From: Bryopsis sp. KO-2023
Lineage: Eukaryota; Chlorophyta; Ulvophyceae; Bryopsidales; Bryopsidaceae
DNA length: 64,000 nt
Assembly (NCBI GenBank): GCA_030272585.1
Contig: BSYQ01000001.1
Span: forward strand, 9,067,001-9,131,000
Direction of reading: 5' to 3'
Shown in pieces: positions 2,179-31,639 of this stretch. The notes beneath the pieces are model-generated. The model saw only the letters and a list, made by a program, of their open reading frames with translations, made no database searches and was not told where the DNA came from. Position 1 is the first letter of the stretch, and the number at the start of each line of letters is the position of its first letter. The position numbers and the translations under genes are program-made.

Positions 2179-2658
2179 ATGTCGAACAGCCACCCTACCT
2201 CGCCCCAGTCCTCCGCCGGCACACACGAACACCCGACCTTCCGTTATCTCTCGGTGCCAGAGGAGCTGGTCGCACCGCATTGGAGAAGATTTTATATCGA
2301 CCAATTGGCCTTTTGTTACGGAGGACCAAGCGTGATCGAAGGCGTACCCCCTGGACTTGAGGGACCACCTATTCGAAGGCCGAGCCCCGTACCACCACCT
2401 ACCGGGCCGAACGACAACGACGACACAGAAAGTGTCGGAAGCTGTGACTCCTGCTTCACAGAGGAGGAAAGAAACGACCCGGAGTTTCTGCGTTTCTACG
2501 CTGAAGTCCAAGAGCACCTACGCAACCGGCGGGCAAACTCGGCCGAGGAACCTCTTCGCAATCGGGACCCACGGCTCGCACACGGAGTCCAACCATGGAC
2601 CTCATACCGTACGAGCCAGCCGAAGCCATCGCCTATCCCGACGGAGTGGAGGAGATGA
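2179..2658 (+). CDS. ORF0: small acidic protein upstream of gag
   Basis: A 159-codon frame in the leader of element A, starting 45 bases after the LTR and overlapping the start of gag by 64 bases in another frame. The protein is proline-rich at both ends with an acidic, serine-rich middle (a D/E-rich stretch with two Cys separated by two residues) and no domain I recognise. It could be a real leader protein, an upstream ORF that controls gag translation, or the N-terminal part of Gag reached by frameshift. Nothing like it is seen in front of gag in element B, whose leader is only about 140 bases. Codon use resembles gag (GC-rich third positions). Confidence 0.4.
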   Translation: MSNSHPTSPQSSAGTHEHPTFRYLSVPEELVAPHWRRFYIDQLAFCYGGPSVIEGVPPGLEGPPIRRPSPVPPPTGPNDNDDTESVGSCDSCFTEEERNDPEFLRFYAEVQEHLRNRRANSAEEPLRNRDPRLAHGVQPWTSYRTSQPKPSPIPTEWRR

Positions 2659-4856
2659 GCGCTGGGGACAGCATGAGCCTGGGGACCGAAGAAGATCCCC
2701 CTCCGGTGCAAGGCGTATTTGTGCAAAACAATATCCAGCACAACGTCCAGAACGTGCACCACGTGGAGGTGAACCAAGACGAGACCTCTATCACCGTAGC
2801 CCAGCTGGCGGCCAACACCGAAGAATGGGCGGGACGTACTCAGGCCGAGCTGTACCAAGCACTCAACGAAGTGCGAGGAGAACTCCATCATACCCGCGAA
2901 GAAGCCGAAGCTCGACAATGGCACGTGGCCAACGAGCAGGCCGAAGCCATGAACACGGCCCTCGAGAACCAGAGAGCCGAATTGGAGGACCATCACTGGG
3001 AGGACCGCGTTCGGTTGGAAGAGGAGTTCATCCGACGGCTCGAGCACCTCAAAGCCGAGAACGGGCATCTCGTGGCCGAAATGGAAGAACGTATGTACCT
3101 GGCCCAAGAACGTGCGGCCGCCAAGGCAGCTCAAGATTTCCAAGACCTTGGAGCCCGGACCGAAAGGCTCACGTTGCAAGTGGCAGACCAGCGGGCCGCT
3201 GTCGAGACGCTCGGGGTCGAAACAAAGTGTCTACGGGAAGACTACCCATCCGTGGACGAGCTCGTGAAGTTATGGTCCAAGCAAGTTCCAGCGCAGCCCC
3301 AAGTCATTCCTGTGTACATGGCCGGAGCCGGAACCCAAACTGTGACCCAAACGACACAAGCGCCACCCGGACCACCCCCGTCTTCCAGTTTTCAAGACGC
3401 GCCCCTTGTTTCTCCCATCATCAGCAACGCACCCGCGGTACCTATTCTTGCGCCACCCAGTGGAGTGCCCAACCAACGGCGAGCCGGACCACCACCAGGA
3501 CCTGTCATTCGAGAGCCCGGTTCTGCACCAACGGGCGGGCCGAGGCCGAGCCGAAGAGACCCAGCGGCCGCCGCAAGGCCACCCAGCGGCCAGAACCAAG
3601 CCACCAATCCTACACCGCCATCCGGCCAAGGACCTCCCATAGCACCACGTCAAGAACCACCCCCTGGACCCAGTCAACCACAGGGAGTTGGAGCTGTCGG
3701 ATTCAATTCGGGAACGGACCCGTTTGCGGGCCTGGGTTCCTATGCCTCAGTTGGACAGCAGGACCCCAACTCCGGATTCCGAGACGCTCCAAGAAGACGG
3801 CGGCCAGGAGGAGGAGGCGGGGACGATGGTGATGGAGGTGGTGGGCCGAATGGACCAGGAGGATCCGGTGGGCCGAATGGACCTGGTGGGCCGAATGGAC
3901 CGGGAGGAGGAGGACCAAATGGACCTGGCGGCGGGCCGAACGGACCTGGAGGTCCCGGAGGACCTGGCGGACCGGGAGGACCATTTGGACCACAATTACC
4001 CGGAGGGCCACCAGCAGCCGGAGGCAACGGATTGAGACAAGTCAAGATACCAATGCCACGAGCTTTCAACGGCACCGCGAATGTCACGGACTGGCTGATG
4101 CGCATGGGCCGATGGTTTCGCGCCCAGGCCATTCCAGAAGAGCTATGGCTTCAGGTCATCTGTGCCAACACAGAGGGCCCTGCAGCCGAATGGATGAATT
4201 TGACCGAGCTCAAAGTAATGGAGGGCCGAAGACAGCCATTTGCCGACTGGCGCTCGTGGGCCGAGGAGGCTCGAAAACTGTTCCAGCCGACGACAACCTC
4301 TGAACACGCCCGAGTCGAGTTACGAACCCTGAGGCAGACGACCTCAGTGAAGGACTACATCAAGCGCTACAACAGCGTTTGTTTCAGGATCCCGGATATG
4401 AGTGAAGCGGAGGCATATAGCGCATTCACCGCAGGCTTGCGTGAACCGATCCGAAGTCAAGTGGTTGGCTTCATTCGTGACGACGTGCAAGCCGCTATCG
4501 AAATGGCCGAACGGCTCGATGGTATCCGTGGACTTCATAACTCGAGTGGAGGCCGGGGTGGAGGAGGTCATCAGCGTTGGAATCGAAGATCAAGAGTTAA
4601 CAGTATTGGCGACAAAGCCGGAGATGATCGTCTCAACTACGTTGGTGGAAACCGCGGCCGGGGAGGTTCAAGCCGAGGCCGAGGCCGAGGCCGTGGCCGC
4701 AGTGGGGGAAGATTTGGAGGACGAGGAGGAGGAGGCCGATCTACCACACCAAGTGGAAGAGGAGGCCGGGGTGGAATATCATGCTACTTATGCGGAGGAG
4801 ACCATGGGATCAGAAATTGTCCCAAGCTCTCGGCCGCAAAGCGTTCGATAAACTGA
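2595..4856 (+). CDS. gag: Gag polyprotein of element A
   Basis: 753 codons. It builds the virus-like particle and binds the element RNA. Residues about 25-45 contain a Q/N/H-rich motif (VQN-x-H-N-V) also present near the start of element B Gag. Residues about 75-220 are heptad-rich, charged and coiled-coil-like. A Pro/Gln-rich stretch and Gly-Pro repeats (GPGG/PNGPGG, about 405-475) lead to the capsid-like Gag domain at about 485-645 (starts PRAFNG, then W..W pattern). An RGG-rich tail ends in one zinc knuckle, C730-x2-C733-x3-H737-x4-C742. The usual knuckle has x4 before His; here I count x3. The long N-terminal coiled coil is unusual for Ty3 Gag. The stop lies inside the pol frame, which is -1 relative to gag. 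Confidence 0.92.
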   Translation: MDLIPYEPAEAIAYPDGVEEMSAGDSMSLGTEEDPPPVQGVFVQNNIQHNVQNVHHVEVNQDETSITVAQLAANTEEWAGRTQAELYQALNEVRGELHHTREEAEARQWHVANEQAEAMNTALENQRAELEDHHWEDRVRLEEEFIRRLEHLKAENGHLVAEMEERMYLAQERAAAKAAQDFQDLGARTERLTLQVADQRAAVETLGVETKCLREDYPSVDELVKLWSKQVPAQPQVIPVYMAGAGTQTVTQTTQAPPGPPPSSSFQDAPLVSPIISNAPAVPILAPPSGVPNQRRAGPPPGPVIREPGSAPTGGPRPSRRDPAAAARPPSGQNQATNPTPPSGQGPPIAPRQEPPPGPSQPQGVGAVGFNSGTDPFAGLGSYASVGQQDPNSGFRDAPRRRRPGGGGGDDGDGGGGPNGPGGSGGPNGPGGPNGPGGGGPNGPGGGPNGPGGPGGPGGPGGPFGPQLPGGPPAAGGNGLRQVKIPMPRAFNGTANVTDWLMRMGRWFRAQAIPEELWLQVICANTEGPAAEWMNLTELKVMEGRRQPFADWRSWAEEARKLFQPTTTSEHARVELRTLRQTTSVKDYIKRYNSVCFRIPDMSEAEAYSAFTAGLREPIRSQVVGFIRDDVQAAIEMAERLDGIRGLHNSSGGRGGGGHQRWNRRSRVNSIGDKAGDDRLNYVGGNRGRGGSSRGRGRGRGRSGGRFGGRGGGGRSTTPSGRGGRGGISCYLCGGDHGIRNCPKLSAAKRSIN

Positions 4857-7800
4857 AGGTCCGGGGCGCGAGGCCACCTACCCTGGACACAAATGCGGGT
4901 GGTATCAGGGCCGAGGTTCCGGAAGATTTTGGGGAGGGGCAAGCAGATGGAGTAGAAGATAGAAAAATAGCCAAGAGCGTTACTTGGCAGGATAAGGCGG
5001 AAGAGCATGTAAAACGGATAAACACCAGCTCCAGCTCGCATAGTTCCGAAACTGCAGCGCGAGCCGAGTCCCTTGGAACAGGACTCAGTAAGGGAGCCGA
5101 TGGTACTGGCCATACACGGCCCGGGGTATCATCTAGGGAACCACCACCTACTGTACAGCTCGGCCCGCAAGGCAACCGAGAGGTGGAGGATTCCAATCAA
5201 GTGCCGGGGGCACTAAGTCGAGCCGACTCTGCAGTGGCCGACAATTTTTCTTTTATAGCTCGGACAGGCAACACCTGTTCGAAGGGGCGTTTCACTGGCT
5301 TCGAAATAGCCATTCAAGTGGGGAACAAGCCGGTGACAGCATATGTGGATAGCGGGAGCTGGGAAAACTATGTCTCCACCGAGACACAAACCCGGCTGGG
5401 ATTGGAGGCGATTGGGCAGCGCCGCACCCTGGTCATGGCGGATGGTTCCAAGGGCGAAACCCAGGGCCGAGCCGAGAATGTCCGATTTCGTTCCGGCCAA
5501 GCCACATTTGTTTCGGACTTCCATATCTTCCCGGATATGGCGTACGAAATGATACTGGGCATTCCGTGGCTCGTAGCCGAGAATCCGGATCTTTGCTTCC
5601 GGACAAGGACGATCACGGTTCAGCGGGGAAGGACAAGTATTTCCCTTCCTCTGGCTCTAACGGACAAACCACGGCCCACGGAGACGATGAACGTGGGTGA
5701 CATGGAACAAACATCCGCGGCCAAGCTCATGAAGGATGCGCGTGCGGGACAAGCGGAAGTGTTAATGGTAGTGGTCACTGAGGCCGGAACCGAACCAGCG
5801 GATGAACATACGAAGGATGATATCAGCAAGCTAGTTCGGCCGGAACTCTCAAAAGCGATTACACGGCTCTTGACCGATTACAAGCGAGTATTCGCGTCCG
5901 ACCTGCCCAAAGGACCACCACCGGTCAGGAACGGACACGAATTCGAGATCGAGTTGGAGGAAGGAACGAAGCCGATCTTTCGGCCCATGTACAAGCTTTC
6001 TCCCGCCGAACTCGCTGAGGTCCGAAAACAACTCGATTATATGTTGGATCGAGAATTGATTCGGCCTTCCAAGAGCCCGTGGGGTGCCCCCATTCTCTTC
6101 GCTAACAAGAAGGATGGCGGACTCCGCTTTTGTATTGACTACCGTTGGATCAACCAGCGGACAGTCAAAAATCGCTACCCACTTCCCTTGCCCGAGGAGC
6201 TTTTGGACCGCCTCCAGGGAGCCAAGGTTTTTACCCGGCTGGATTTGCGATCGGGGTACTGGCAGATGCCGATCCGGGCCGAGGATCAGGAGAAGACCGC
6301 CTTTCGGACCCGGTATGGGCACTATGAGTACAAGGTAGTGCCCTTCGGCCTGACCAACGCGCCACCCCAGTTCATGGCGATGGTGAACGACCTCTTCCGG
6401 GATTTCCACGACAAGTTTCTTGTGGTCTTCCTGGATGACATCATCGTGTATAGCAAGACGGAGGAGGAACACGCGGAGCACCTTCGGCTCGTGCTGGATA
6501 AGCTGGCCGAGCACAAGCTTTATGCGAAGGCGTCCAAATGTTCCATCGCCGTTAAGGAACTGGATTTCGTGGGGCATTGGATTTCGGCCGACGGTATCTC
6601 TCCACATCGCAGCAAGACCCAAGCCATCCAGGATTGGAAGCCGCTCCAGTCGGTGCCCGAGGTCAGGAGTTTCCTCGGCATGGTGTCCTACTACCGACGG
6701 TTTATTCGGGAATTCTCCCGGATCGCAGCTCCTATTCAGAAGCTCGTCAAGAAGGACCAAGCCTGGGAATGGGGTTCGGCCCAAGCCGAAGCCTTTCAAG
6801 CGCTCAAGGACCGACTCACATCGGCCCCAGTTCTCTTGATTCCTGACCCGGCCAAGCCGTATGTGGTGGCGACGGATGCCTCGGACTTCGCGTTGGGAGC
6901 TACCCTGATGCAAGGCAGCAAAGAGGAGGGCTACCAGCCCGTAGCTTTTCTAAGTCGTTCCCTCAACTCGGCCGAGCAGAAGTATTCGGCCTACGAACGG
7001 GAGCTTCTGGGGATCTCCTACGCTCTCGCTCAGTGGAGGCACTACCTGGAGGGTGCCCCAGGCGGCACCACCGTCTACACCGACCACCTCCCAGCGACCC
7101 ACTTTTTGCAGCAACGTGTGCTGTCCCGGACTCAAACACGTTGGTTGAAGGCTGGCTCTTTCCAGTCCATCAAGCCGAAGATTTTATACCTTCCGGGCCG
7201 TGCTAACTTCGTGGCCGATGCGCTTTCACGCAAGCCACAGTTACGGCTCAATGCGATTTTGGGGGCCAAAATCTCGCCCGGGGAGGCACAAGACTGGCAA
7301 GCCGCCATTAAGGAGGACCCTATTCTTCGACCAATCGTGACCCAACTCGACAATGGACAAGCAGTTCAGGGGTACACCCTGACCCCAGATGGGCTGCTCA
7401 TGTATCAAGCCAAAGACATTGGAGCCGAGCCGAAAATTGTTGTGCCGGTTTCTAAACGCCAGGTGGTATTGCACGACCACCACGATGTGCCGATGGCGGG
7501 ACATCCAGGGAAAGCTCGGACAGCCGAGCTTGTGAGCCGAAGACATTGGTGGAGAGGCTGGCGCCGAGCCGTGAACCACTATGTCGAATCGTGCCCCACT
7601 TGCCAGATGATGAAGACCGAGAATTCCAAGCAGAAAGGGTTGCTACACCCTCTGCCAGTTCCGGCCTACAAGTGGGAGCAGCTGACGACCGACCTCGTTA
7701 CTGACTTACCGAAGTCTAACGGGTACACGGCCGTGGCTGTCTTTGTGGATCGGCTCACGAAGATGTGCAAGTTCGTCCCGTGCACCAAGGAGGTTTCGGC

Positions 7801-8740
7801 GAAAGGATATGCCGAGCTCTTTCTCTCCAAAGTATTCCCCACCTCAGGGATACCGGAAGTTATCGTGTCTGATCGAGACCCAAGATTTACGAGCCAGTTC
7901 TACAAGGAGTTGTTTCGGCTCGTGGGCACCGATCTAAGGATGTCGACCGCTCACCATCCGCAATCTGATGGACAGAGCGAAGTAACAATCCGAACACTGG
8001 AGAACTTCCTTCGGCCCTACATTGAAGCAAGGCCGGAGACATGGAGCGAATACCTCAGCACGGCCGAATTTGCTGCAAACAATTCGGTCAACGCCAGCAC
8101 CAAATACACCCCTTTCTACCTGATGTATGGGCAACACCCAAGAGGCCTGGAGGCCGACCGGCCGAGTACCAACGTGGAGGCGGCCGAGGCCATGGTGAGC
8201 CGAATGAACCGAGACCTGGAGGAGGCCAAAGCAAACTACGCTTCGGCCCAGGAGACCATGTGTGAGAGCGCCAACAAAAAGAGGCGACATGTGGAATTCG
8301 CAGTGGGACAAGAGGTTTGCCTCCGAAGTGCCCACCTCCCTCTGGCCGTAACCAAGCACATTCCGGCCAAGGTCAGGCGAAGGTTCATCGGGCCGTTCAA
8401 GGTTGAGGCCGTAATATCACCAGTGGCCTATAGGCTCGACCTCCCACCAGGCTGGAGGCTTCACCCTACATTCCACGTCTCCAAGCTCAAAGAATACAAG
8501 CGGTCCGAGGAGTTCGTGCGTGATGCACCTCCCGGCCCGGCTCTTATCGACGAGCTGGATGGAGAGGAGGAATATGAAGTGGAGGCTATCGTCAGGGAGA
8601 AGGGAAAAGGAAGAGCAAAACGCTATTTGGTTTGCTGGAAAGGATACCAACCCCATGAGGCAACATGGGAGCCGAAGGAGAGTCTGACACATTGTTCAGA
8701 TCTGCTGGCCGAGTTCGTTGCACGAACGGGCCGAGCATGA
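4781..8740 (+). CDS. pol: Pol polyprotein of element A (PR-RT-RH-IN-chromo)
   Basis: 1,319 codons counted from the first ATG in this frame, overlapping gag by 76 bases in the -1 frame; the frame is already open upstream. I found no standard slippery heptamer in the overlap, so how ribosomes reach it is unclear. Order: aspartic protease with D190-S-G; reverse transcriptase with FLDD (D552, D553); RNase H (D699 in ATDAS, then YERE and TDH); integrase with an HHCC zinc finger (H...GHPG...CPTC) and catalytic D971, D1031 and E1067, exactly 35 residues apart for the last pair; a chromodomain at about 1262-1313 (EYEVEAI...YLVCWKGY...TWEP). The chromodomain makes this a chromovirus; in that family it steers integration toward marked chromatin. 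No break is seen. Confidence 0.96.
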   Translation: MLLMRRRPWDQKLSQALGRKAFDKLKVRGARPPTLDTNAGGIRAEVPEDFGEGQADGVEDRKIAKSVTWQDKAEEHVKRINTSSSSHSSETAARAESLGTGLSKGADGTGHTRPGVSSREPPPTVQLGPQGNREVEDSNQVPGALSRADSAVADNFSFIARTGNTCSKGRFTGFEIAIQVGNKPVTAYVDSGSWENYVSTETQTRLGLEAIGQRRTLVMADGSKGETQGRAENVRFRSGQATFVSDFHIFPDMAYEMILGIPWLVAENPDLCFRTRTITVQRGRTSISLPLALTDKPRPTETMNVGDMEQTSAAKLMKDARAGQAEVLMVVVTEAGTEPADEHTKDDISKLVRPELSKAITRLLTDYKRVFASDLPKGPPPVRNGHEFEIELEEGTKPIFRPMYKLSPAELAEVRKQLDYMLDRELIRPSKSPWGAPILFANKKDGGLRFCIDYRWINQRTVKNRYPLPLPEELLDRLQGAKVFTRLDLRSGYWQMPIRAEDQEKTAFRTRYGHYEYKVVPFGLTNAPPQFMAMVNDLFRDFHDKFLVVFLDDIIVYSKTEEEHAEHLRLVLDKLAEHKLYAKASKCSIAVKELDFVGHWISADGISPHRSKTQAIQDWKPLQSVPEVRSFLGMVSYYRRFIREFSRIAAPIQKLVKKDQAWEWGSAQAEAFQALKDRLTSAPVLLIPDPAKPYVVATDASDFALGATLMQGSKEEGYQPVAFLSRSLNSAEQKYSAYERELLGISYALAQWRHYLEGAPGGTTVYTDHLPATHFLQQRVLSRTQTRWLKAGSFQSIKPKILYLPGRANFVADALSRKPQLRLNAILGAKISPGEAQDWQAAIKEDPILRPIVTQLDNGQAVQGYTLTPDGLLMYQAKDIGAEPKIVVPVSKRQVVLHDHHDVPMAGHPGKARTAELVSRRHWWRGWRRAVNHYVESCPTCQMMKTENSKQKGLLHPLPVPAYKWEQLTTDLVTDLPKSNGYTAVAVFVDRLTKMCKFVPCTKEVSAKGYAELFLSKVFPTSGIPEVIVSDRDPRFTSQFYKELFRLVGTDLRMSTAHHPQSDGQSEVTIRTLENFLRPYIEARPETWSEYLSTAEFAANNSVNASTKYTPFYLMYGQHPRGLEADRPSTNVEAAEAMVSRMNRDLEEAKANYASAQETMCESANKKRRHVEFAVGQEVCLRSAHLPLAVTKHIPAKVRRRFIGPFKVEAVISPVAYRLDLPPGWRLHPTFHVSKLKEYKRSEEFVRDAPPGPALIDELDGEEEYEVEAIVREKGKGRAKRYLVCWKGYQPHEATWEPKESLTHCSDLLAEFVARTGRA

Positions 8741-9058: not shown

Positions 9059-10282
9059 ATGGATCTGACAGCAGCGAACTTGGAGCGTTTCCTGCAGGAC
9101 GCGCGACAGGCTTCCAAACAAAAGAGCAAGCTCGAGGCCGAACTTGCCGAATGGCAAAATAGGGCCAACGAGGCGGAGAAGCGGGCAAAAGCCGCTGAGG
9201 AGAAAGTAGCTCAATTGGAGGAACAGCTGAAAACGCAGCGCTTGGATGCGTTTCGGCAAGCAGCAGTGTGGGGGCAGGAAAGGGAAAGGCTGGCGAAAAC
9301 AGCCATGACCGAGGCTATCGACACCCTCAACCGTGGACTGCAGCGTATGGAAATGGACCAACCTCTGGCCGAGGAAAAAGAAAAAGAAAAAGAGCACGTG
9401 GAAACCGAAACGGTGGAAGACTCGGTACAAGAAGAAGTCGCTGCGGAAAGGCCACCAGAGGGACCATCGTCAACCCCACTGAAGGTGGTGGTCCCGCGAC
9501 GAAAAAGGTCGAGGAAGCTCAAAGGCCGAGGGGTGGGGAGGTTCATCCTGGACGAGGCCATGGAGGTGGACCAGGCTGAGGCCGAGGGGGAAGACGAGCA
9601 GCAGCTCTGGGATTACACGGAAGATCCCTACGCCGATTTGGAGGACGCTCTTCCCCCGAGGCCGAAGCCTGGTCCCGTCCTGCTCTCCGGGAGTGAGGAC
9701 GACCCCATCTCGGAGGAGCCTCCAAAAGCGTCGTCCCTACCACCACCACCGCCTCCAGCAGCCGTTCCGTCCACGTTCGCCTGCGCCGCTTGCGCATATC
9801 CGCGGGAAGCTCCCCGCCCTGGTTTGGATCGGGTGCTCTGCGAGAAAGGGCATCTTTTGTGCAAGAAGCACAATGTGGGGTTGAGGATCGCGGCCAGGGC
9901 GGGAGCCCTCATCTCGGCCGACGAATCAGGAGGACCTTACCTCCCGCGCATACAGGACCTCATCGGCGAGGGAACCCAAGGCGTCAAGCCGATCCTCCCC
10001 TTCGACGCCCCACTCCCGGATTGTCCAAGCTGCACCAAGGCATCGCTGAAAGGTCGCTGGCCGGGCAAGCTTAAAGAACAGGTCGGCACTTGGAACGACC
10101 AGTATTTCCAGGCTCTCGGCTTGGAACTCCCAGGAGCAGCCAGATCGCACCGCCAGCCGAGCCACCCACCACCATCACCAGACCAACCATCAGCACCTTC
10201 CTCGGCGACTCGCCTTCCGCTCCCTCCACACAGCCCAGCAACGTCCAAGAGGCATGGGCCGAGAACCAGGTCGCAGAAATAG
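9059..10282 (+). CDS. ORF3 of element A: coiled coil plus RING-like Cys/His domain
   Basis: 407 codons from ATG 9059, chosen because its context is GCCATGG and the frame further upstream lacks another ATG. It lies 318 bases after pol, in the env position, but has no signal peptide or membrane segment. Residues about 1-110 are a charged heptad-rich coiled coil; about 115-230 is acidic with a basic patch (RRKRSRKLKGR); about 230-240 is a proline run. The C-terminal part has C242-x2-C245-x15-C261-x3-H265-x2-C268-x2-H271-x50-C322-x2-C325, which fits RING spacing. Elements B and C have the same design with little other likeness. A role as ubiquitin ligase or zinc-stabilised binding module is inference only. 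Confidence 0.8.
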   Translation: MDLTAANLERFLQDARQASKQKSKLEAELAEWQNRANEAEKRAKAAEEKVAQLEEQLKTQRLDAFRQAAVWGQERERLAKTAMTEAIDTLNRGLQRMEMDQPLAEEKEKEKEHVETETVEDSVQEEVAAERPPEGPSSTPLKVVVPRRKRSRKLKGRGVGRFILDEAMEVDQAEAEGEDEQQLWDYTEDPYADLEDALPPRPKPGPVLLSGSEDDPISEEPPKASSLPPPPPPAAVPSTFACAACAYPREAPRPGLDRVLCEKGHLLCKKHNVGLRIAARAGALISADESGGPYLPRIQDLIGEGTQGVKPILPFDAPLPDCPSCTKASLKGRWPGKLKEQVGTWNDQYFQALGLELPGAARSHRQPSHPPPSPDQPSAPSSATRLPLPPHSPATSKRHGPRTRSQK

Positions 10283-11304: not shown

Positions 11305-11693
11305 TGATACGAACGTCCGTCGTATGACACGCGGTTCGGCCCACTCACCCAACACGTGGTTCGGCCTGACAGTAGTCGGACCGAACCAGCTCACCATCAT
11401 CATAGCCACACATTAAGGGAGAGGGCCAGGCCGCCTCTGAGGTGGCAACCCTCAGTTCGGCCTGGAGCCTCACATTCAGCTTAGGGTCCATTAGGACACG
11501 GCCAAGGGGCCATTAGGACGCTGAGTTGGATGAAAGGGTTGGACAGGCTGTCGGCCCGGCCGAATACTTATTCGGCCCGGACCACAGCCTTATTGTAACT
11601 TGGACACATTGTAAAGTTCCTTGTTTTGAAGTGTATTCCGTGCTCTAGACGTAAGTCCACTCGACTAGTCTATTTGTTCCAACGTTTGTATCA
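11305..11693 (+). repeat. 3' LTR of element A
   Basis: 389 bp, identical to 1745-2133 at a constant offset of 9,560. It is followed by the second CAAAC of the target duplication. Confidence 0.95.
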
Positions 11694-11698
11694 CAAAC

Positions 11699-12830: not shown

Positions 12831-12980
12831 GTTTTCCGCGCACAACGAGCCGAGTCGCGCTCGAAACGGTTGAGAAACGGGCGAGTTCCGCCCATTTCTG
12901 TAAATCCGACAGAAATGGGCGGAACTCGCCCATTCCTCAACCGTTTTCCACGCGACAGGGCTCGCTGTGCGCGTAAAACG
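12831..12980. repeat. Palindrome P1
   Basis: About 150 bp, arms about 65 bp. The centre has CCCATTTCTGT and its complement around a short loop; outer part TCGCG...CGCGA and GCGCACA...TGTGCGC. Confidence 0.85.
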
Positions 12981-13306
12981 GTTTCTCACCACCTCGCGTT
13001 GCGTTTCACGGGGTTTGAGATCCTGGCACAGGGTTTTAAGCGAAATCAATAAATGCATTATTAATGGTTTATAGAAATCAAGCAGATCGTTTTCTTTGCT
13101 CACTTTCTTTCCTCGGAACTCGGCACACAGGTGCGACCGCGTCCCAAGAACGCGCGGTTCAAGTTTCAGGTGGTTTCGTCAACGGGGCGGGCCTGTGGAA
13201 TCGCTTTACACTTTAAGCCCTTTATTATTATTTTCTTTATGAAATATCACTGGGTTTTCTGGGGTTTTGTTTTCGTTAAAACGTTCTGTGGTACGTAAAG
13301 GATATT

Positions 13307-13449
13307 CCGCGCAGAGCGCGCTTTGTCGCGCGTAAAACGGTCGCGAAACGAGCGAGTTCTGAAAATCCCTGTAAACTCGACAAAACTCGACAGGGTTCGC
13401 GAGATCTCGCTCGTTTCGCGACGGTTTTACGCGCGACAAGGCGCGCAGG
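13307..13449. repeat. Palindrome P2
   Basis: About 140 bp. Outer arms GTCGCGCGTAAAACGG and complement; middle GCGAAACGAGCGAG and complement; the central core (AAATCCCTGT) is only partly paired. Confidence 0.8.
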
Positions 13450-13868
13450 CTACGTTTTTCAAAAATAATAAGTTCTGTTTTTCGAAACAGAACTTTTGGT
13501 TCAGCATGTGTTTGGTAGGAGGGGAGAAAGGTTTACCTCCAAAAACTTTTTATAAATTAACTTACCGATTTGATTCAGTTCTACTGATAGTGAAGCTTGT
13601 GGGCAGAGCTGGGCAGTACCGTAACGACCCCCTACGGTACGGTACGACACGTTACGCACCGTACCGTACCGTAATGGGTCGTTACGGTACGGTACGGTAC
13701 GAATTTTTTTTACGGTACGGTACAACATCGGTACTGGATCGGTACGATACGTTATCGCCAACGACCGGCACCCAACATCGGGTCGTTGCAACGTGTCACT
13801 GACGTTGTTGTACCGACACAGACAGTACGACGTTCGGTACAACAACGTAATGGCGTTGCAGTAACGTC

Positions 13869-14004
13869 ATGTGGATGACATACAAAGTAACCCCCGCAGG
13901 GTCCCGAGAACCCAAGGGGAACCCAGTGGGATTCGAACACCGTACCGCACAGTGTCGAGTCATCTACACTGAGCGCTAAGCCAAGTGGACCACGATGACT
14001 TTGT
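13869..14004 (-). repeat. tRNA-like cassette, left arm
   Basis: Minus-strand copy of the cassette: box A-like TGGCTTAGCGCTCAG, box B-like GTTCGAATCCC, and the conserved GGGACCCTGCGGGGGTTAC tail. It is the mirror of the next cassette. Confidence 0.6.
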
Positions 14005-14079
14005 GGCTGTGGCGATGATATACCTTAATCTGTTTGTAATTCTGTGAAATTAGGGTATATTATTGCAACAACCACAAAA

Positions 14080-14197
14080 TCATCGTGGTCCACTTGGCTT
14101 AGCGCTCAGTGTAGATGACTCGACATCGTGTGGTACGGTGTTCGAATCCCACTGGGTTCCCTTGGGTTCTCGGGACCCTGCGGGGGTTACTTTGTAC
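14080..14197 (+). repeat. tRNA-like cassette, right arm
   Basis: Plus-strand mirror of 13869-14004 across a 75-base AT-rich loop. Start (ATCATCG) and tail match the cassette at 10751-10868 in a different hAT element, although the middle differs. Confidence 0.6.
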
Positions 14198-14205
14198 GTC
14201 ATCCA

Positions 14206-15031
14206 CAGGCATCTTTAAACGAGGACACTGTCCTCATTCTGGTATTTGAGGACACATTCTGCGGCTTATTTGAGGATTGGGTGAGGACAGTGAGTAAAAA
14301 CAACACAAAAATGACAAAAAAACCAAGTAGATGTGTCTCTGGACGCAAGGCGACTAACCCCGCACACTTTCACAGCAGTGCGAAAGGAGAGGGCCCTCTC
14401 AAAATGCCCCTCGTGCTGGCTGTAACGCTTGCTATCACGTGAAAACTCATCGCGATAATACCCTAGCAGCCCAAAAGCACCCTTGCATATAACAAGACGT
14501 GAAAAGCTCAAGGCAAACTGCACAAGCAATTCGAGAAAAGCTCGACACGTCGCCTTGGACACGCAACTATACTCCGTTGCACTCCCAAGGTGGTGACGTT
14601 TTTCCTTGACAATCGTCAGTCGACAAAGTATCCACTTAAATCCCAGCCTCAAGACAGACAACAAACAGCCAACTCCACCAGCACCTAACATCAAGGTCGT
14701 TTTGGCGATCGTTGTTCCCTGACGTTCAACCCCGAACGTCAGGGACGTAGAAACGCAAATGAGTCGGACTCACTCGTTACAACGCGCGATATGGACAGAA
14801 AAAGCTGTTGGGACCATCGAAATGAAAGGGCCAGTCGCGAAATCAGGCGAAAAACCTTTCCTTTCCTTTTTGGTGCTCAGAGATAGCAACGATGTGCGTG
14901 GGCAGGGTCGGTTTCCCGCAAAACGGCTGTGTTTGTCTGCGGCTGACTGGATTTAACTTTGTGAAATGAGGACAGGTTGAAGACCTTAAATGAGGACAAT
15001 GTCCTCACGTGTCCTCAAATAAAGATGCCTG
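14206..15031. mobile_element. Nested hAT-type element (826 bp)
   Basis: Terminal repeats CAGGCATCTTTA are flanked by the 8-bp duplication GTCATCCA (14198-14205, 15032-15039). Subterminal copies of GAGGACA/TGTCCTC lie at both ends. No transposase frame. Removing it restores the right arm of the host foldback element. Confidence 0.92.
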
Positions 15032-15569
15032 GTCATCCACATGACGTTACTGCAACGCCATTACGTTGTTGTACCGACCTGGCCGTTGTTGTAACGTGTT
15101 ATCGTTACACGTAACGCAACCGATCGTTGTTGTAACGTCTTGCCTCGGTGCGGACGTTGTAGCAGCCGGTGTAGACGTTACTGATAACGTACTGCGTTAC
15201 AACAACGCTTTGGCGTTACAGTAACGTCGGATCGTTGTTGTACCGGACTTGGACGTTGTTGTACCGACTGGGTCGTTGTTGTAACGTGTGCAACGTGTTG
15301 TAACGTCCGGTCGGTGCACGCACCGACCGGACACGTTACTGTACCGACCCTGTGCGTTACGGTACGGTGCGTTACAAACGGGTTACTGCCCAGCTCTGCT
15401 TGTGGGTGACGCAATAGTGGTCGGCTGTGTTGGTTGGATTCGTGATAACTTGCTGGCTAACGCAAGTATACTTGTGAGGTTTGTTGGTTTAGACAACTCT
15501 CCAGCTAGCGCGGTTGTGAACGCTACTAGAGCACTTGGTTGGGAAGTGATTGCGTCAGGCAAACACTTA

Positions 15570-15606
<37 letters not shown>

Positions 15607-15821
15607 AGCGGGAACACACCAATCCCACGAATCCCGAGTTCTTACAAAGTACTATGAGTGTCAAATGAACGAGTGGGCCTCTTAAGTACCCCTAAGTGTA
15701 GTACGCTGACGCATGCCCCAACCTCTGGGTCTAATCTGTCTTACTCGTGAACCCACATGCGTCAGCCACCCTCGGCTCTATCCCAAACTACCTCGTGAGC
15801 GCTCAAAAGACTAACATCTAC

Positions 15822-16046
15822 TTCGATTTAAACTCCGATTATGATTTGATTTACCCATTGCATTCCAAACAACACAGTTCTGCTTCGATTTCGCCAGTCG
15901 CACTCACACCCTATGTCACACTTGACGATTCTATTTTGGGTGATTCGAGTAGCTGGCGACGATTCTGGCTGGGGACGATTCCTCCTTGGGACTCGTCGAC
16001 GAAGTGCAAGCGTCGCCCAAAGGCTTTCTCGGATGTTTTCCCCAGT
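15822..16046. other. Flank of palindrome P3
   Basis: Noncoding. The words GACGATTCTATTT and CGACGATTCTGGCTGGGG recur in front of palindrome P4 at about 18015-18060, so the two palindromes share their left flank. Confidence 0.5.
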
Positions 16047-16195
16047 CGTTTCCGCGCACGGCGCATCAAGTCGCGCGGAAATCGGCGAAGAAACGAGGGA
16101 GTTCTATGCATCCCTGTAAACTCCACAGGGATGGGCGGAACTCGCCCGTTTCTTCCCCGTTTTTCGCGCGACCTGATGCGCCGTGCGCGGAAACG
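16047..16195. repeat. Palindrome P3
   Basis: About 149 bp. Outer arms CGTTTCCGCGCACGGCGCAT and complement are near perfect. The inner part mixes the two core types: one arm ends ATCCCTGT, the other carries ACAGGGAT joined to GGGCGG. Confidence 0.85.
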
Positions 16196-16299
16196 TATTT
16201 CCCAGCTTCCTGCTTTGAGTTTCGCGCGGTTTGGTGGGCCTCGCGCGAGTTTTTGGGTTCCATCTGATTTGGCTAAAGGAGTTGAAAAAATCACACTAA

Positions 16300-17960
16300 A
16301 TTCGGAAGTGGCTGTCCCAGAAAAGGGGGCATAACTCAGCCCATACTTCACCTTTTCGCCTGCAGTTTTTTTGGATGGGCAACCAACCACTCTGTGCATG
16401 TTCCAGAAAAAATTGACACAAAAAACACCACTCATCCAGCAGCTATTTTTAGAAAACCACTCCAGAAAGTGGTTTTCCAGGCCTGATCATGCCTAAATGA
16501 TCATGTAATTGAATGAAAGTTTGCACAATCAAAGACATACATATTATACACTTGCTCACTAAATATCAGATCAATCGGATCAATTTAAGATCAAAAACGA
16601 ATGACCCTTCGAGTTGAAGAGGTCCTAGGGGTCTAAAGAGAGTCTTTTCGTTTTAGGACAGTTAACACTGTAGATTTCTATCATTACGTAATCTAATGAC
16701 TCTGAAACTTTTCAGGCACAATGTCTTGAGTGACATCACATGGCATGCAAAGTTTCAGATTCATCCAAACTCATTTAGATGAGATCGTACAGGATTTTCA
16801 GAATCTTAATCAGGGAATAATCGGGGGACCAGCCCAGGAAAAGGGGCATAACTCAGCCCATACATCATCTTTTTGAGTGCAGTTTTGTTTTGTGGATTTC
16901 TAACACCACTGTACATCTTCCACCATGTTTGCACTGAAATCCAAAAAGTCACAGAAGAGATAAATTTAACAATGTGCAACAGAAACAGTGTTTCCCCCAC
17001 TGATCTAGCTTAAACATTTTTGGATCACCATGAAATTGTGCATGGCACATGTTACACATATCAATAAGAGACTCACAAACTTTGGGATCACTCGGATCTA
17101 ATACATATCCGGATATAACGTTGTTTTGCTCGGAGTGGGGCGTACGACTGATGAGAGACATTACGTGATCTAATGATTTTGAAACTTTGCAGACATGTTG
17201 TTGTGAGTAATGACAAATGGCATGCAAAAGTATAGAATCATCTGAAGTCCTTTAGATTGGATCGTACAGGCGTGTCTGCCGATACTCGGGGAGTCGGACA
17301 CTAAGGTCCCCATTTTTGGGTCTTACGTAATCCGATGAACTTGAAAGTTTGCAGCAATGTTGTCTGAAGTCAGTTCACATGCTATGCAAAATTTAGGGTT
17401 GATCCAAAGTTGTTTAGGTGGGATCAGATGAGATTTTCTGGATGTTAACCGGGGGACCAGCCTAGGAAAAAGGGCCGTAACTCACCCCAAATTTGTTGTT
17501 TTCAACTGAAGTCTTCTTGTGTGGATAGATAACAACAATGTTAACCTTTCAGCAAAGGTTCAAAAAAAAAAAAAAGGTAGTGTATGAGCTATACCCAGAA
17601 ATCTACTACAGATTTCGGTTTTACTCAACAGATCATGTCTAAATGATCTCAGATTTCGATAAAATTTTGTATGGTAGTAGAAACACAAGTAATAGACATG
17701 CCTATAAAATATTAGATCAATCGGATCACTTTATGATCAAAAACGAATGATCTTTCGAGCTGAAGGGGTCGTAGGGGTCTATAGAGGGACGTTTGATCTA
17801 ACGAGAATCAATCCCTTCAGTTCTGTGTATCACGTAATCGGATGAACCTGAAACTTTGCAGGCATGTTGTCTGGTGCTATGGACAAACATCTGCAAAAGT
17901 TCAGGTTAATCAAAGCTCATTTAGATATGATCGTACGGGATTTACTGGATGCTGATCGAA
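16300..17960. repeat. AT-rich hairpin array 1
   Basis: A degenerate tandem array with about 520-620-bp spacing: GGGCATAACTCAGCCCATAC-like phrases start near 16327, 16843 and 17472. Within each unit lie imperfect hairpins of 55-70 bases, such as GAAACTTT...GCATG paired with CATGC...AAAGTTTC (about 16705-16770, 17168-17240, 17340-17400, 17845-17910). Stop codons are dense. I see no gene. Confidence 0.7.
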
Positions 17961-18120
17961 GTTTTAAAGGGGTGTTCTGTGGTGTAGTGATACTCTGAGC
18001 CCATGTCTTACTCGATGATTCGACGATTCTATTTCGAGTGAGGCGACGATTCTGGCTGGGGGCTGGTCGATGAAGTGCAGGAGGTGCCCGATCTCTTGCA
18101 CTAACCGTTTGAATAGTCGT

Positions 18121-18265
18121 TGACGCGCACGTCGCACGAAGTCGCGTGGAAAACGATTGAGAAACGAGGGAGATCCGCCCATTTCTGTGGGATCTACAGA
18201 AATGGGCGGAACTCCCTCGTTTCTCAATCGTTTTCCACGCGACAGGTCTCGCTGTGCGCGGAAAA
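18121..18265. repeat. Palindrome P4
   Basis: About 145 bp. Core GCCCATTTCTGTGGGATCTACAGAAATGGGC-type; middle GAAACGAGGGAG and complement; outer GTCGCGTGGAAAACGATTG and complement. Confidence 0.85.
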
Positions 18266-18593
18266 CAATTTCCCACCCCCCAGCGCCGAGTTCCACGCGT
18301 TTTGAGAACCTGGCGCGGCGTTGGGGGTGATTCGAAAACTGGCATTTCCATGGCTCGGAGGGAAAACCCATGAGCTTCTTTTTCCCTTTTTTGTTTTTGC
18401 GTTAATCTTTTCGAGGAGGTGCGAAAGGCTTCTGAGAAGCGTTCGACGGAGTATGGGGGGTGTTTGTCAACGAGGGAGTGATTTAGAAGTGTTTCACGAC
18501 CGAGCCCATTTATAATCATTTTCTGTCGGGGCACTTCTTTTCGTGTTCTGGTTTTATGTGTTTGTAAAGTATTGGTTCGGGTGGAGGGTGGGG

Positions 18594-18733
18594 TTCCGCG
18601 CAGAACGAGCCCAGTCGCGGTTGAAACGATCGAGAAACGAGGGAGATACGCGAATCCCTGTGGAATTTACAGGGATTCGCGGAACTCCCTCGTTTCTAGG
18701 TCGTTTCTCGCGCGACTAGGCTCTTTGGGTTCG
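18594..18733. repeat. Palindrome P5
   Basis: About 140 bp. Core CGAATCCCTGT and complement around a GGAATTT loop; middle GAAACGAGGGAG and complement. Confidence 0.8.
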
Positions 18734-19194
18734 TCTCCCCCCCCCTCTTTTCGTTTTTTGCTTGAGGGGTTGCCTTTGGTATGTTGGCTGTGGGTAGAAG
18801 GAGGTGGGGGGGCTGTGGGCTTGGAGTTGATTAAAAATTGGAAGTTTACACTTCAGAGTATGGATTGATTTAATTCCGAATGTGATTTTCGATTGTACGA
18901 GTCGTACAATTTCACTTTAGGGTATGGGGTTTGGCTGTGATCGATTTTCGAAACGAGATTGGGGCGGGAGGGTTGTGCGTGTCGGAAGCAGGCGGAGTCG
19001 GAGGAGTTGGAGGGTCGACGAAAACGCGACCCCTGTTATTCCGCTCCTCTCGGTGTAGTCGGTGACGTCGAGATTAGCGCAATCCCCGACTTCCAGCATC
19101 CAATCCCCAACTTCCAGCAGCAGAAGTTTTTCGAAATAGTGAAAAACAAGGCAAAAAGGTGTGTGGCATGAAACTACCATCCCTGATGGTCAAA
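18734..19194. other. Unassigned noncoding sequence
   Basis: Shares the phrase TGGGTAGAAGGAGG...GGGGGGCTGTGGGCT with about 12566-12598, so it is again flank of the palindrome repeat family. No gene. Confidence 0.4.
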
Positions 19195-19460
19195 AGCACC
19201 CTCCTGTGCAGTCCTGTGAAGTTCTGTAGAATATTGTGAGTCCCTTGATTGATATCCATTGTAGTCTGTCCTCCAAAAAACCAAAATCCTCCTGTTCCCT
19301 GTCCACCTGTTTGGTCACCTGTCCTTATTGAATGTTGTGAATGCATTTGTGATCTCCTGAAGTTCTGTAGAATATTGTGAGTCCCTTGAGTGATATCCAG
19401 TGTAGTCAGTCCACCAAAAACCGAATCCCTTTGTGTTGAAATGCACCCTCCTGGCTTGTC
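19195..19460. repeat. Direct repeat, about 141-bp period
   Basis: The phrase GAAGTTCTGTAGAATATTG with following sequence starts at 19218 and again near 19359. Each copy continues through GATATCCA.TGTAGTC.GTCC. Frames on the minus strand look conserved only because the DNA is repeated. Confidence 0.65.
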
Positions 19461-19760
19461 CCAAATAGAAATGTTTGTGATTTGTGTCCCTTCCTCCTGT
19501 TTGTTTATTTTTTGGTGCACCTGATGTTGATTATTTTCGATTGATTTGGAAAACAGCAGCGTTCTCCAGTTGTGAGTTTTGACTTCTGTTTTCCTTTTCA
19601 AAACTTCAGGTCTTTCTTTATAGTATATCTATAGAGGATAAAACTTCACAGTTGTGAGTTTTGTTTTCTGTTTCACACAGGGGAGGGGGAATCCCAGCCT
19701 GCAATGGAAAAAAAAAACATTTATAAATAGTTGAAACAAAAGAGTTACAATCAGTTACTA

Positions 19761-19804
19761 TGGGGCGGCGGTCCCTAGGCAGTTCGACTCTGCCACGCCC
19801 CGCA
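19761..19804 (+). ncRNA. tRNA minihelix-like hairpin 1
   Basis: GGGGCG, ten bases, then a perfect T-arm (GGCAG TTCGACT CTGCC), one base, and CGCCCC. This is the acceptor plus T-arm half of a tRNA without D and anticodon arms. It may be a tRNA remnant. Confidence 0.35.
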
Positions 19805-19914
19805 CCGTCGTCCTCTAGGCTTCTGTATTTAGTATTTTAATAGGGTCCCACTATTTTTACAAAAACAAAAAGATATATAAAGGGACCCTATCTAAGTACC
19901 TTTGTGGCCGAGGA

Positions 19915-20030
19915 AGCGAAGGAGGAAAGGGAAAGGGGGGAGGAAAGGTGGAAGGAGAGGGGAAGGAGGAAAGGGGACGGAAAGGGGGGAGGAATGCGAA
20001 GGAGGAAAGGGAACGGAAAGGGGGGAGGTA
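19915..20030. repeat. Polypurine minisatellite 1
   Basis: About 115 bases almost entirely purine, with an AAGGAGGAAAGGG-A-CGGAAAGGGGGGAGGAA unit repeated two to three times. A (GT)n run follows at 20041-20060. Confidence 0.8.
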
Positions 20031-20513
20031 AAAAATTGATATGTGTGTGTGTGTGTGTTTGTGGGGGTGTTGGGGGGCTGTGGGTGTGTTCGATAACGTT
20101 TTTTGTGGAGTGTGTGTGTGTGTATAAAGGAGGATCAATTGCAGTTGCTCGACCCAGGCAAGTCGTCTGTGATCAACGGAGTTGTCGGGGATGGCTAAAG
20201 GGGTCAGGCACCCAGAACGGAGCAGGCACGTTGGCAGGAGCAAAGCAGCAGTCCAGAAGTCCATTCATGGTAGAACTCTGTGGCTTTTTTTGTGGTACTG
20301 TGTGGCGTGTGTGTGTGGTGGTTTTGTTTTGTTTTGTTTGTTTGCTGAATACCTTGTGCGAGTGCCGGACACTCGCACAACATGAAAAAGACTAGCCAAC
20401 TTGTGATCTTGGGTGAGATTGTTTAGGTTTTAAAAAAAAACCGTATAACAACGAAAACAAAGGGCATTGGAATGATGTTGGACGGCCCGTTTGTATGAAT
20501 TGTGTGTGTGTGT

Positions 20514-20800
20514 GGGGGGGGGGAGGATAAAAAAAGGGGGGAAAGGAGAGGGGAAAAAAAAAAGGAATGGTGGAGGGGGAGGAAGGGGGTGGTGTAGGAG
20601 AGGGGGGGGGGGGGGAAAGGAATGGTGGAGGGGGAGGAAGGGGAAGGTATAGGAGTGGGAAAAAAAAAAGGAAAGGTGGAGGTGGAGGATGGGGGAGGAA
20701 AAGGAGAGGGGAAAAAAGAGGAAAGGTGTAGGGGGAGGAAGGGGGAGGTGTAGGAGAGGGGGGGGAAAAAGGAATGGTGGAGGGGGAGGAAGGGGGGGGA
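20514..20800. repeat. Polypurine minisatellite 2
   Basis: Nearly 290 bases of purine with about 50-base units starting GGAATGGTGGAGGGGGAGGAAG (near 20562, 20618, 20669, 20718, 20770), separated by G- or A-runs. Such tracts can form triplex or G-quadruplex structures. Pro/Phe/Ser-rich frames on the minus strand are by-products. Confidence 0.85.
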
Positions 20801-20842
20801 AATCAATCAATCCATCAATCAATCAAGCAAGCAAGCAAAGAA

Positions 20843-20883
20843 AGACGGTTACTGGGCTTGGGGGTTCGAATCCTCCCAACCGT
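20843..20883 (+). ncRNA. tRNA minihelix-like hairpin 2
   Basis: ACGGTT, nine bases, then GGGGG TTCGAAT CCTCC, one base, and AACCGT: same architecture as the hairpin at 19761, different sequence. It follows a run of AATC/AAGC tetranucleotides. Confidence 0.35.
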
Positions 20884-21119
20884 TTCTCCACTAACTCCCA
20901 ACAATCCTCTAATCAAATCCAATCCTTTAGCGAAGTCCAATTCAATCAACCTAACTCCTCCACGTTACACAAGTCACGCCGTCCGTCGGCAACTCAACCA
21001 ACCCATCCCAATTCTCACTCAAAGCTAACCTGTGCTGTACTCAGTACTCCCACCACACACCAACTGAATCACACTCCCATCCACCTCTTTGGTGGCTCAC
21101 ACTCACCTCAATTCTAAAT

Positions 21120-23180: not shown

Positions 23181-23193
23181 TGGTAAGGGAGAT

Positions 23194-23342
23194 ATGGCGG
23201 ATCCCGTGGATCAGAAAGAAATGGGGTTCGAGGATTCAGGCGACCCCCTCGGGCTAACTTTTCGCACAGACCACCGTGGAGGCGCCACGACCCACCGATG
23301 TCAAGGATTTCGTCCCAGGATATCGGCGCGCGAGGTTTTGTG
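23194..23342 (+). CDS. Possible first exon, unrecognised
   Basis: An ATG in good context (ATATGGCGG) opens about 50 codons of hydrophilic sequence ending at a donor-like GTGGGTGAGTAG. No domain is seen. The next acceptor cannot be placed because a 43-bp-arm inverted repeat follows. It may be a chance frame. Confidence 0.2.
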
Positions 23343-23462
23343 GGTGAGTAGTTCGTTTCGCGAGTTTTATTTTGCGCCGAACCGGGTTCGACGTCCGAGG
23401 GTCGTCATTCCTCTAATCGTTTATATTTTTACGAAAGAAGAAGAACAGGGAGCCTCCACTAC

Positions 23463-23634
23463 GACTCTGCCTCGCTTCGCCGTCCTGTCGGGCTTTGTCG
23501 CGTCGAAAAAGACGGCCTGTGCGAGAAGTCGTTCCTCCAGGGGATCCCAGGTCTATTTCTGGGGAGATCTTTTCGCCGAGTCCATCTTTTGCGACGCGAC
23601 AAAGCCCTACAGGACGGCGAAGCGAAGCAGAGTC
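23463..23634. repeat. Inverted repeat P13
   Basis: 43-bp arms (GACTCTGC...TTTGTCGCGTCG at 23463-23505 and complement at 23592-23634) around an 86-base loop. It shares the TCGCG style of the palindrome family but not its core. Confidence 0.8.
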
Positions 23635-23949
23635 GGATTATGGGCTGGGGGAAAGACTTCAAGGAGCGACGACGCTCGTGGAAAACGCGCCACGCTCTGT
23701 TCCCCCCTCGATTTCGAGAGATTCTGGATCGAAATCAGGGTGTAGAAGTCGAAATCGCAGCGGAGTTGGCCGTTTTTGTGTGTTTTTCTGAGTGTTTTTT
23801 CCGGTTTTCGTGGAGGAGAGGCGGCGCAAGGGGGAGAACTCGCGCCCGAGTGGACATACAAGCTTTGGTTGGCCTGGAGGTGGTACAGAGAGGAGAGTTT
23901 CGACTTGGGCTCGGTGTTTCTGTGTGTGTGTGCTAAGTGCTATTACATC

Positions 23950-24140
23950 GAAAGTCCCCCCCCGAACCCCCCCAACCCCCCCAACACAAACCCAAACAGC
24001 ACCCAAGCAACACCCCGAACTAGCACCCAAAAAACACCCAAAAAACACCAAAACAAACACAAAAACCAACACCCAAGAAACACCCAACAAACACAAAAAC
24101 AAACACCGAAAAAACACGGTACAAAACACCCCAAACACCC
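23950..24140. repeat. C/A-rich low-complexity tract
   Basis: CCC- and ACACCCAAAAA-type repeats directly downstream of the protease gene stop; on that gene's strand it is G/T-rich and would be its 3' untranslated region. Confidence 0.6.
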
Positions 24141-24143
24141 CTT

Positions 24144-27112: not shown

Positions 27113-27121
27113 GAAAACAAC

Positions 27122-27160
27122 GATAGGGGCACCTCGTGGGTTCGACTCCCACGAATCGGA
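27122..27160 (+). ncRNA. tRNA T-arm-like hairpin 3
   Basis: A perfect T-arm GTGGG TTCGACT CCCAC with a short CGAT/ATCG outer pairing. Less complete than the hairpins at 19761 and 20843. Confidence 0.25.
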
Positions 27161-27179
27161 GAACTTTCCTTCTTCTCTT

Positions 27180-31596: not shown

Positions 31597-31639
31597 ATCC
31601 AACAAAGAGCATCGGGACCACAGAAACTCTAACCACCAG

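Follow-up and report, generated by a model that had tools for sequence, protein, structure and literature searches.

To our knowledge, accessory genes common to unrelated transposons are rare, and the known examples are mostly enzymes with known folds. TET/JBP dioxygenases are carried by diverse fungal DNA transposons, KDZ and Helitron elements included, where they are mostly undisrupted and have been proposed to counter silencing (PMC12730594). The VANDAL elements of Arabidopsis encode VANC, a non-transposase protein with conserved domains and variable regions that is less conserved than the transposase, and for which DNA binding and loss of methylation have been shown (PMC5735166). In bdelloid rotifers, LTR retrotransposons and Penelope-like elements share third open reading frames of the GDSL esterase, DEDDy exonuclease, coiled-coil and TM types (PMC5408684), and Helitrons carry VTD and OTU domains (PMC9741609). 

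The window analysed here, a stretch of 64,000 nucleotides from Bryopsis sp. KO-2023, contains one Gypsy element A, one Gypsy element B and two copies of an element C (C1 and C2), each with a gene, ORF3, after pol. Related ORF3 genes are present in three element classes of this genome: Gypsy retrotransposons, a Helitron and a KDZ-like DNA transposon. Thus the view of the first-pass annotation, that this is a gene of retroelements, was too narrow. Its other claim, that the gene is undescribed, holds for the literature searched: no coiled-coil/zinc ORF3 of Gypsy, Helitron or KDZ elements was found in the titles and beginnings of abstracts of open-licence PMC articles. ORF3 is a non-enzymatic-looking kind of gene, kept intact by Gypsy, Helitron and KDZ-like elements in one genome. 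Our tentative preference is to see it as a member of a mobile pool of accessory genes rather than as a retroviral structural gene, with nuclear anti-silencing as its likeliest role.

In evolutionary behaviour, ORF3 appears to resemble VANC and the transposon TET/JBP genes, since it is conserved within families and diverse between them, it is exchanged as a unit, and there are two such genes per KDZ-like and Helitron unit. As with TET/JBP, one accessory family is common to unrelated transposon lineages (PMC12730594); however, there is no dioxygenase among the Pfam matches of the scanned ORF3s, and LTR retrotransposons are the main carriers here. VANC, like ORF3, is an element-encoded non-transposase gene, but it has DUF1985/DUF287 domains and is a VANDAL gene (PMC5735166), whereas ORF3 is common to three element classes. 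Neither DUF1985 nor DUF287 was among the Pfam matches of A, B and C at E<=1 or of nine other ORF3s at E<=0.01. The bdelloid ORF3s are likewise post-pol types exchanged between retroelement classes, some of them with coiled coils, but the words "RING", "zinc", "Helitron" and "DNA transposon" do not occur in the available text of that report (PMC5408684).

Element A lies on the forward strand between two 389-bp LTRs (1745-2133 and 11305-11693), which run from TG to CA, are 100% identical and are flanked by the 5-bp duplication CAAAC (1740-1744 and 11694-11698). Its gag ORF occupies 2505-4856 (Retrotrans_gag, E 9e-12) and its pol ORF 4628-8740, encoding protease, RT, RNase H, integrase and chromodomain (Pfam RVT_1 1.6e-34, Integrase_H2C2 7.4e-18, Chromo 1.3e-12). 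Gag, the PR-RT-RH-IN-chromodomain order, the LTRs and the 5-bp duplication identify the element as a Ty3/Gypsy chromovirus. The ORF3 of A (9059-10282, forward strand, 407 aa) is predicted to consist of a coiled coil, a basic cluster, an acidic linker and a C-terminal class-1 zinc-ligand domain, whose eight-ligand core spans residues 242-325 (9782-10033).

Element B is also on the forward strand, with a gag ORF at 43669-46326 (Retrotrans_gag, E 1.2e-10) and a pol ORF at 46278-50321 that aligns with pol of other Gypsy loci at 36-58% and whose domains (RT, integrase, chromodomain) were assigned by eye from the translation. Its ORF3 (50770-52584, 604 aa) has the eight-ligand pattern and a heptad signal, and the pattern search places the core at residues 451-549 (52120-52416). 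As to the LTRs of B, five other B copies (L010-L014) have the segment 43095-43563 once more, inverted, downstream of their ORF3, where the window copy (42600-53400) lacks it. On the reverse strand, C1 has a pol ORF without its N-terminal part (57866-60379; from the translation, and aligning with pol of other Gypsy loci) and a class-2 ORF3 of 339 aa (56752-57771), identified by ligand pattern and heptad signal, with its core at residues 192-262 (56986-57198; ligand pattern and class-2 alignment A4). The ORF3 of C2 (61420-62439, reverse strand) encodes an identical protein, and its core was located by the ligand pattern at 61654-61866. The two copies (55666-64000, reverse strand) form a direct repeat spaced by ~4.67 kb, with 99.7% identity over 3668 bp, and the truncated pol of C1 looks as if tandem truncated copies had formed.

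The first-pass annotation had located these four genes correctly, each after pol. From the pol stop to the ORF3 ATG there are 318 nt (A), 448 nt (B) and 94 nt (C), and the start codons do lie in good context (GCCATGG in A, CATAATGG in B, AACATGG in C). A coiled coil at the N-terminus, also proposed there, agrees with the heptad signal of A, B and C, which was reached by 0/200 shuffles in each. When 15 ORF3 proteins were considered, 12 of them from outside the window and read from stop to stop, the signal was reached by no shuffle in eight (A, B and C included) and by 1 to 8 of 200 in five; it is unconvincing in the Gypsy families L033 and L039, where 21 and 20 of 200 shuffles reach it. The ordered Cys/His set is real as well: none of 20000 shuffles of each protein (A, B, C) reproduced it, and it occurs in 4 of the 177 stop-to-stop ORFs of at least 100 codons in the window, which are exactly the four ORF3s. 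However, the sixth ligand had been overlooked. It is His in A and B (C-x2-H) and Cys in C (C-x4-C) and brings the total to eight; the spacings then given (x15/x50, x21/x60 and x13/x38) are correct if the last gap is counted from this unnamed ligand. All six cysteines of the A protein sit within the ligand set. Basic, NLS-like clusters were found in 15/15 ORF3 proteins scanned, by a loose definition and without shuffle control.

We propose that the ORF3 protein would oligomerise via its N-terminal coiled coil, that the compact eight-ligand C-terminal domain would bind zinc, and that the basic clusters and the acidic linker may point to a nuclear location. Such a combination of parts would suit a nuclear adaptor. 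In the nucleus, ORF3 could act on host factors or on the chromatin of the element itself and so keep the element expressed; contact would be made through the zinc domain, and the coiled coil would add avidity. The position after pol could also bring to mind an env-like gene, as in errantiviruses; yet the three window proteins A, B and C have no membrane span (hydropathy over the best 19 residues 0.64-1.01) and there are relatives in DNA transposons. An Env gene was ruled out on these two grounds, and its probability is practically nil.

The class-1 domain was modelled by AlphaFold with confidence (13 sequences; pLDDT 88.6 and pTM 0.82, for A over the 137 residues surrounding the core). It shows short strands, one helix behind the third pair of ligands and two more from the last CxxC on. 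For class 2 (seven sequences), the model was weaker (pLDDT 70.6, pTM 0.63), with a similar order of helices. No PDB fold matched the class-1 model (Foldseek, VIA) or the class-2 model, the class-1 model matched no viral model at a useful level, and profile searches against PDB sequences gave no match; the p62 ZZ domains, which headed the class-2 results at E 2.9 and worse, were taken as noise. 

The likeness to RING domains that had been pointed out holds for the ligand order. A and B fit the RING order C3-H-C-H-C2, and class 2 nearly does, with C-x4-C at the third pair, which in RING domains usually has x2 spacing. None of the Pfam RING models exceeded its cut-off in the 13 class-1 and 7 class-2 members. 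Sub-threshold matches in class 1 (n=13) were Prok-RING_4 (0.033) in two members, zf-RING_5 (0.33) in one and Sina_RING (5.1 at best) in three, and names unrelated to RING scored equally well (DUF2752 0.013, Zn_Tnp_IS91 0.014). As there is neither a PDB or viral match nor a Pfam RING above cut-off, a RING fold, or a single common fold, is unsupported, with nothing above threshold in sequence or fold databases.

RING ligases have a hydrophobic E2-contact residue at the position before the second Cys, and TRIM proteins have the order RING, B-box, coiled coil. ORF3 shares with these ubiquitin ligases the eight-ligand order and the presence of a coiled coil, but its coiled coil comes first, a long loop of 38-60 residues precedes the last pair, and neither a B-box among the Pfam matches nor a matching fold nor a profile above its cut-off was found. 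If ORF3 were nevertheless a ligase, a divergent RING would recruit an E2 and ubiquitinate a host restriction or silencing factor, with the coiled coil as dimeriser. The order C-C-C-H-C-(H/C)-C-C, the helix after the third pair, the terminal CPxC in class 1, the weak sub-threshold Pfam matches of some members and the ubiquitin-related accessory domains described in Helitrons (VTD, OTU; PMC9741609) are all in line with such a function. However, the confident model matches no PDB RING, 10/13 class-1 sequences have Ala in front of the second Cys, and class 2, which has Phe or Leu there (7/7), lacks the CPxC proline. We regard a ligase as unlikely.

Many intact copies of ORF3 are present in the 91 Mb (28 contigs) of genome searched, in which C2, C3, C4, C8, C9, C10, C13 and C15 are used below as contig labels. 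For A, 102/144 candidates were scored; 30 matches extend over 364 residues or more with an identity of at least 79%, and 29 of these have no in-frame stop, L065 among them being frameshifted. Besides the window copy, 26 copies in the genome cover residues 1-407 without a stop. For B, 73 of 302 candidates were scored and none of the 73 has a stop, and the B domain alone occurs at a minimum of 150 genomic sites (best 150 of 273). For C, 52 matches, window copies included, cover residues 1-339 without a stop, fragments are also present, and one further match over residues 1-313 has a TGA. It must be taken into account that decayed copies are under-counted and intact ones favoured in these figures, because the searches order matches by protein score and not all candidates were scored. 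Five B copies follow one another at exact 10264-bp steps on contig C9 (C9:271678-314545), which suggests a tandem array of the whole B element.

The mean pN/pS of the A family was 0.113 (153 pairs of 18 copies, eight of which, L001-L008, were top matches and ten were picked among matches at 89-97% identity). By part, it was 0.146 in the coiled coil, 0.093 in the linker, 0.103 in the zinc domain and 0.201 in the tail, the zinc domain being no more constrained than the linker. With L065 left out for its frameshift, close comparisons within A, L040-43 and C gave a domain omega of 0.04-0.09. In four pairs of L040-L043, omega was 0.065-0.087 in the domain versus 0.19-0.30 elsewhere, and for C versus L044 it was 0.039 in the domain and 0.20 outside. 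Constraint on the domain was weaker in L045/L046 (0.179) and L048/L056 (0.149), and distant pairs, with dS near saturation, gave 0.22-0.32. Among 12 copies of B there were 51 synonymous and 10 nonsynonymous differences (13 and 0 in residues 440-585), and among those of C 1 and 0; these low nonsynonymous counts are biased, since the copies were the top matches by protein score. Judged by these codon comparisons, ORF3 is, as had been supposed at first, a selected gene, and purifying selection on it is strong. The neutral dN/dS and frequent stops named in the first-pass annotation as refuting signs did not turn up, with in-frame stops in 1/30 near-full-length (A), 0/73 scored (B) and 0/52 full-length (C) copies. 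A dead reading frame was ruled out by pN/pS and the intact copies.

Two classes of ORF3 can be told apart by profile. Class 1 (profile A3) comprises A, L033, L034/L055, L035, L039, L040-L043, L053, L054 and L036, and class 2 (profile A4) comprises C/L044, L045-L047, L048, L056 and L049; L041, L043 and L047 were omitted from the alignments. L050 and L051 match the class-1 profile and lack the full ligand pattern, and L078 has a broken frame. Gypsy elements carry class 1 in A and at least seven more families, and A shares 28-56% of its domain with other families in the same genome. The earlier impression of almost no likeness outside the ligands is thus right for A, B and C among themselves, but not for these families. 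By tblastn, Gypsy pol lies upstream of the class-1 ORF3 in L033, L035, L039, L040 (integrase part), L041, L053 and L054, and also of a match of the L034 kind at C9:1411312; the sequence upstream of L034 itself is reverse-oriented B gag, which by eye looks like a nested insertion. In class 2, L045 belongs to a second Gypsy lineage, where it comes after ORFs for gag-protease, RT-RNase H and integrase. Between its RT-RNase H and integrase ORFs there is a 195-aa ORF whose kind is unassigned (contig C3:5690237-5690821).

At 6/6 loci, ORF3 genes of both classes lie no more than 9 kb from a KDZ-like transposase, genes of the L036 (class 1) and L049 (class 2) kinds standing head to head beside it. A seventh unit (C8:4402468-4411643) keeps the class-2 gene and both flanks, with no match to the transposase or to class 1. 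The name KDZ is provisional because the Pfam match is below cut-off (PF18758, E 3.9e-4, 20.6 bits versus a cut-off of 26.6); CxC5 (E 9.7e-4) and Chromo (5.6e-4) are likewise below theirs. The CxC5 clusters of KDZ transposases are also Cys-rich domains in KDZ elements, but here the CxC5-like ORF (E 0.00097, under cut-off) is separate from ORF3, and up to E 10 no CxC model was listed for the domains of ORF3. KDZ and CxC5 hint at a fungus, but in this genome Chitin_synth_2 gave one short match (32.2 bits) and hydrophobins none, the control of the latter search having no match anywhere either. The KDZ-like element also contains a 480-bp MITE-like repeat rich in CCGTAAC (C10:305476-305958), with 35 or more further sites.

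All five near-identical RepHel copies of the Helitron sit between two class-2 genes (L056 and L048), the C13 copy being broken. The RepHel ORF, of 1386 aa, matches PIF1 over cut-off (5e-21) and Helitron_like_N under it (2.2e-4). Comparison of the C15 copy with one C4 copy gave an extent of ~C15:202705-225818, with both class-2 genes well inside; one end reads A|TCTCTACC and the other has a 7-bp-stem hairpin and then CTTG|T. RepHel, the 5' TC after A, the 3' hairpin and the A|T insertion are all those of a Helitron, whose usual 3' end is CTRR, from which the CTTG found here differs. Three degraded RepHel relatives on contig C2 (39-68%) have no class-2 match nearby. Two more short ORFs lie in the element (C15:208344-208898 and 218531-219112), coiled-coil-like by eye and without the zinc pattern; one of them is antisense beside the L048 gene.

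In the class-1 tree (midpoint root), the single KDZ gene is sister to Gypsy L040/L042 with support 99/98, and L054 and L053 form long branches. The class-2 tree, of seven rows, separates KDZ and Helitron from Gypsy at 92/97, which is below the 95 mark. The profiles of the two classes find neither each other nor B above noise, B scoring 8.0 bits when the best shuffled decoy reached 9.1. With no homology found between class 1, class 2 and B, there may be two or three kinds of genes that converged. Whatever the role of ORF3, class 1, B and class 2 would then be unrelated in origin and alike only in ligand order and charged N-terminus. Against this stand the clear homologues across element classes within class 1 and within class 2, and the hhalign comparison of B with class 1, in which the ligands align in order (P 0.0013 as a single comparison, probability 18%). 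We consider such convergence possible but doubtful.

The presence of ORF3 in elements with three transposition mechanisms argues against a cofactor of Gag, Env or integrase and favours a host-directed nuclear role. Thus, of the roles suggested in the first-pass annotation, that of Gag cofactor is weakened and that of silencing antagonist, which is directed at the host, gains by the Helitron and the KDZ-like transposon. More broadly, ORF3 could be a transposition cofactor that binds the nucleic acid or enzyme of its element and aids assembly, nuclear import or target choice. It is element-encoded wherever the context was examined and kept intact in many Gypsy copies, and basic clusters with a zinc domain would suit nucleic-acid binding; but Gypsy, Helitron and KDZ-like elements, which carry related genes, differ in intermediates and enzymes, and a cofactor seems to us rather improbable. 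What the three do share is the host nucleus that silences them and not the chemistry of transposition, and for this reason anti-silencing is ranked first. We infer that ORF3 is directed at the host, and anti-silencing as the particular role is a guess, since no homologue of known function was found and nothing singles out silencing. Also weighing against it are the motif arrays, which are not clear in the Gypsy elements B, C and L045, the constraint on the A-family zinc domain, which does not exceed that on the linker, and the degraded RepHel relatives that have no class-2 match nearby.

The sharing suggests that the host poses a problem common to these elements, and ORF3 offers a direct way to find it. 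A bolder version of anti-silencing, to which we assign a rather low probability, is that this new family of zinc-domain genes would constitute a pool of silencing antagonists throughout the genome, moving between retrotransposons and DNA transposons, with a version in each class of element that is matched to its own sequence. If true, this would be a general counter-defence across the divide between retrotransposons and DNA transposons.

Between families, ORF3 diverges faster than pol. Over 530-560 pol codons, A and L033 are 94% identical in pol and 50% in ORF3, and A versus L035, L039 and L053 gives 69-77% and 31-35%, respectively. Within the A family, L001 and L006 have a pS of 0.007 in the last 390 pol codons and 0.147 in ORF3, whereas L004 and L007 have 0.084 in the 3' part of pol and 0.017 in ORF3. 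Sliding windows over seven copies concentrate the difference at ~8.9-10.4 kb; L005, whose pol fragment of 20 codons was unusable, was left out. This discordance in synonymous divergence indicates that ORF3 has been swapped between elements, and template switching between co-packaged RNAs would do it. Exchange between copies and diversification at family level would also be explained if ORF3 were a self-limiting factor that represses its own or competing elements, for copy-number control or exclusion. It should be difficult, however, for strong purifying selection to maintain selfish repressors in many unrelated elements, which makes self-limitation quite improbable beside anti-silencing.

Dense motif arrays are common in Helitron/KDZ-type transposons anyway. 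In the Helitron, CAGCCGC occurs 107 times inside (8 in coding sequence) and 0 times in 12.8 kb of flank, mostly in arrays that directly follow each class-2 gene or immediately precede RepHel. The arrays of the KDZ-like element lie between the class-1 and class-2 genes and at the right end. No clear arrays were seen in Gypsy B, C and L045, and a weak excess of GGCCGAA in Gypsy A (8 versus a mean simulated maximum of 3.5) was not trusted. Dense non-coding arrays in the style of VANC (PMC5735166) are thus clear here only in the Helitron and the KDZ-like element.

In the collections searched, A has one relative outside this genome, P0004, which is 93% identical and comes from a 1153-base contig of a Parasphingorhabdus record; this is probably a stray fragment of A or of a near-identical element. 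B and C ORF3 had no relatives outside this genome in the collections searched, viral contigs held no ORF3 relatives and prokaryote genome contigs no class 1; this absence means little, as those collections hold few eukaryotes.

As for the rest of the window, no RNA families were found in it. The repeats of element A at ~10.6-11.0 kb are an insertion unique to the window copy among seven aligned copies, and not a family feature; short motifs in this insert are similar to the CCGTAAC-rich MITE-like repeat. A 250-400-bp repeat occurs three times (43105-43504, 15398-15803 and 1-249) with 94-98% identity. At 30861-35082, inverted repeats with arms of 1581 nt and 323 nt, 97% complementarity and a 117-nt spacer form a large palindrome-like structure. 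Finally, a 155-nt repeat is scattered in at least nine copies over 12831-30035, at a spacing partly of ~475 nt, with more copies in the opposite orientation.
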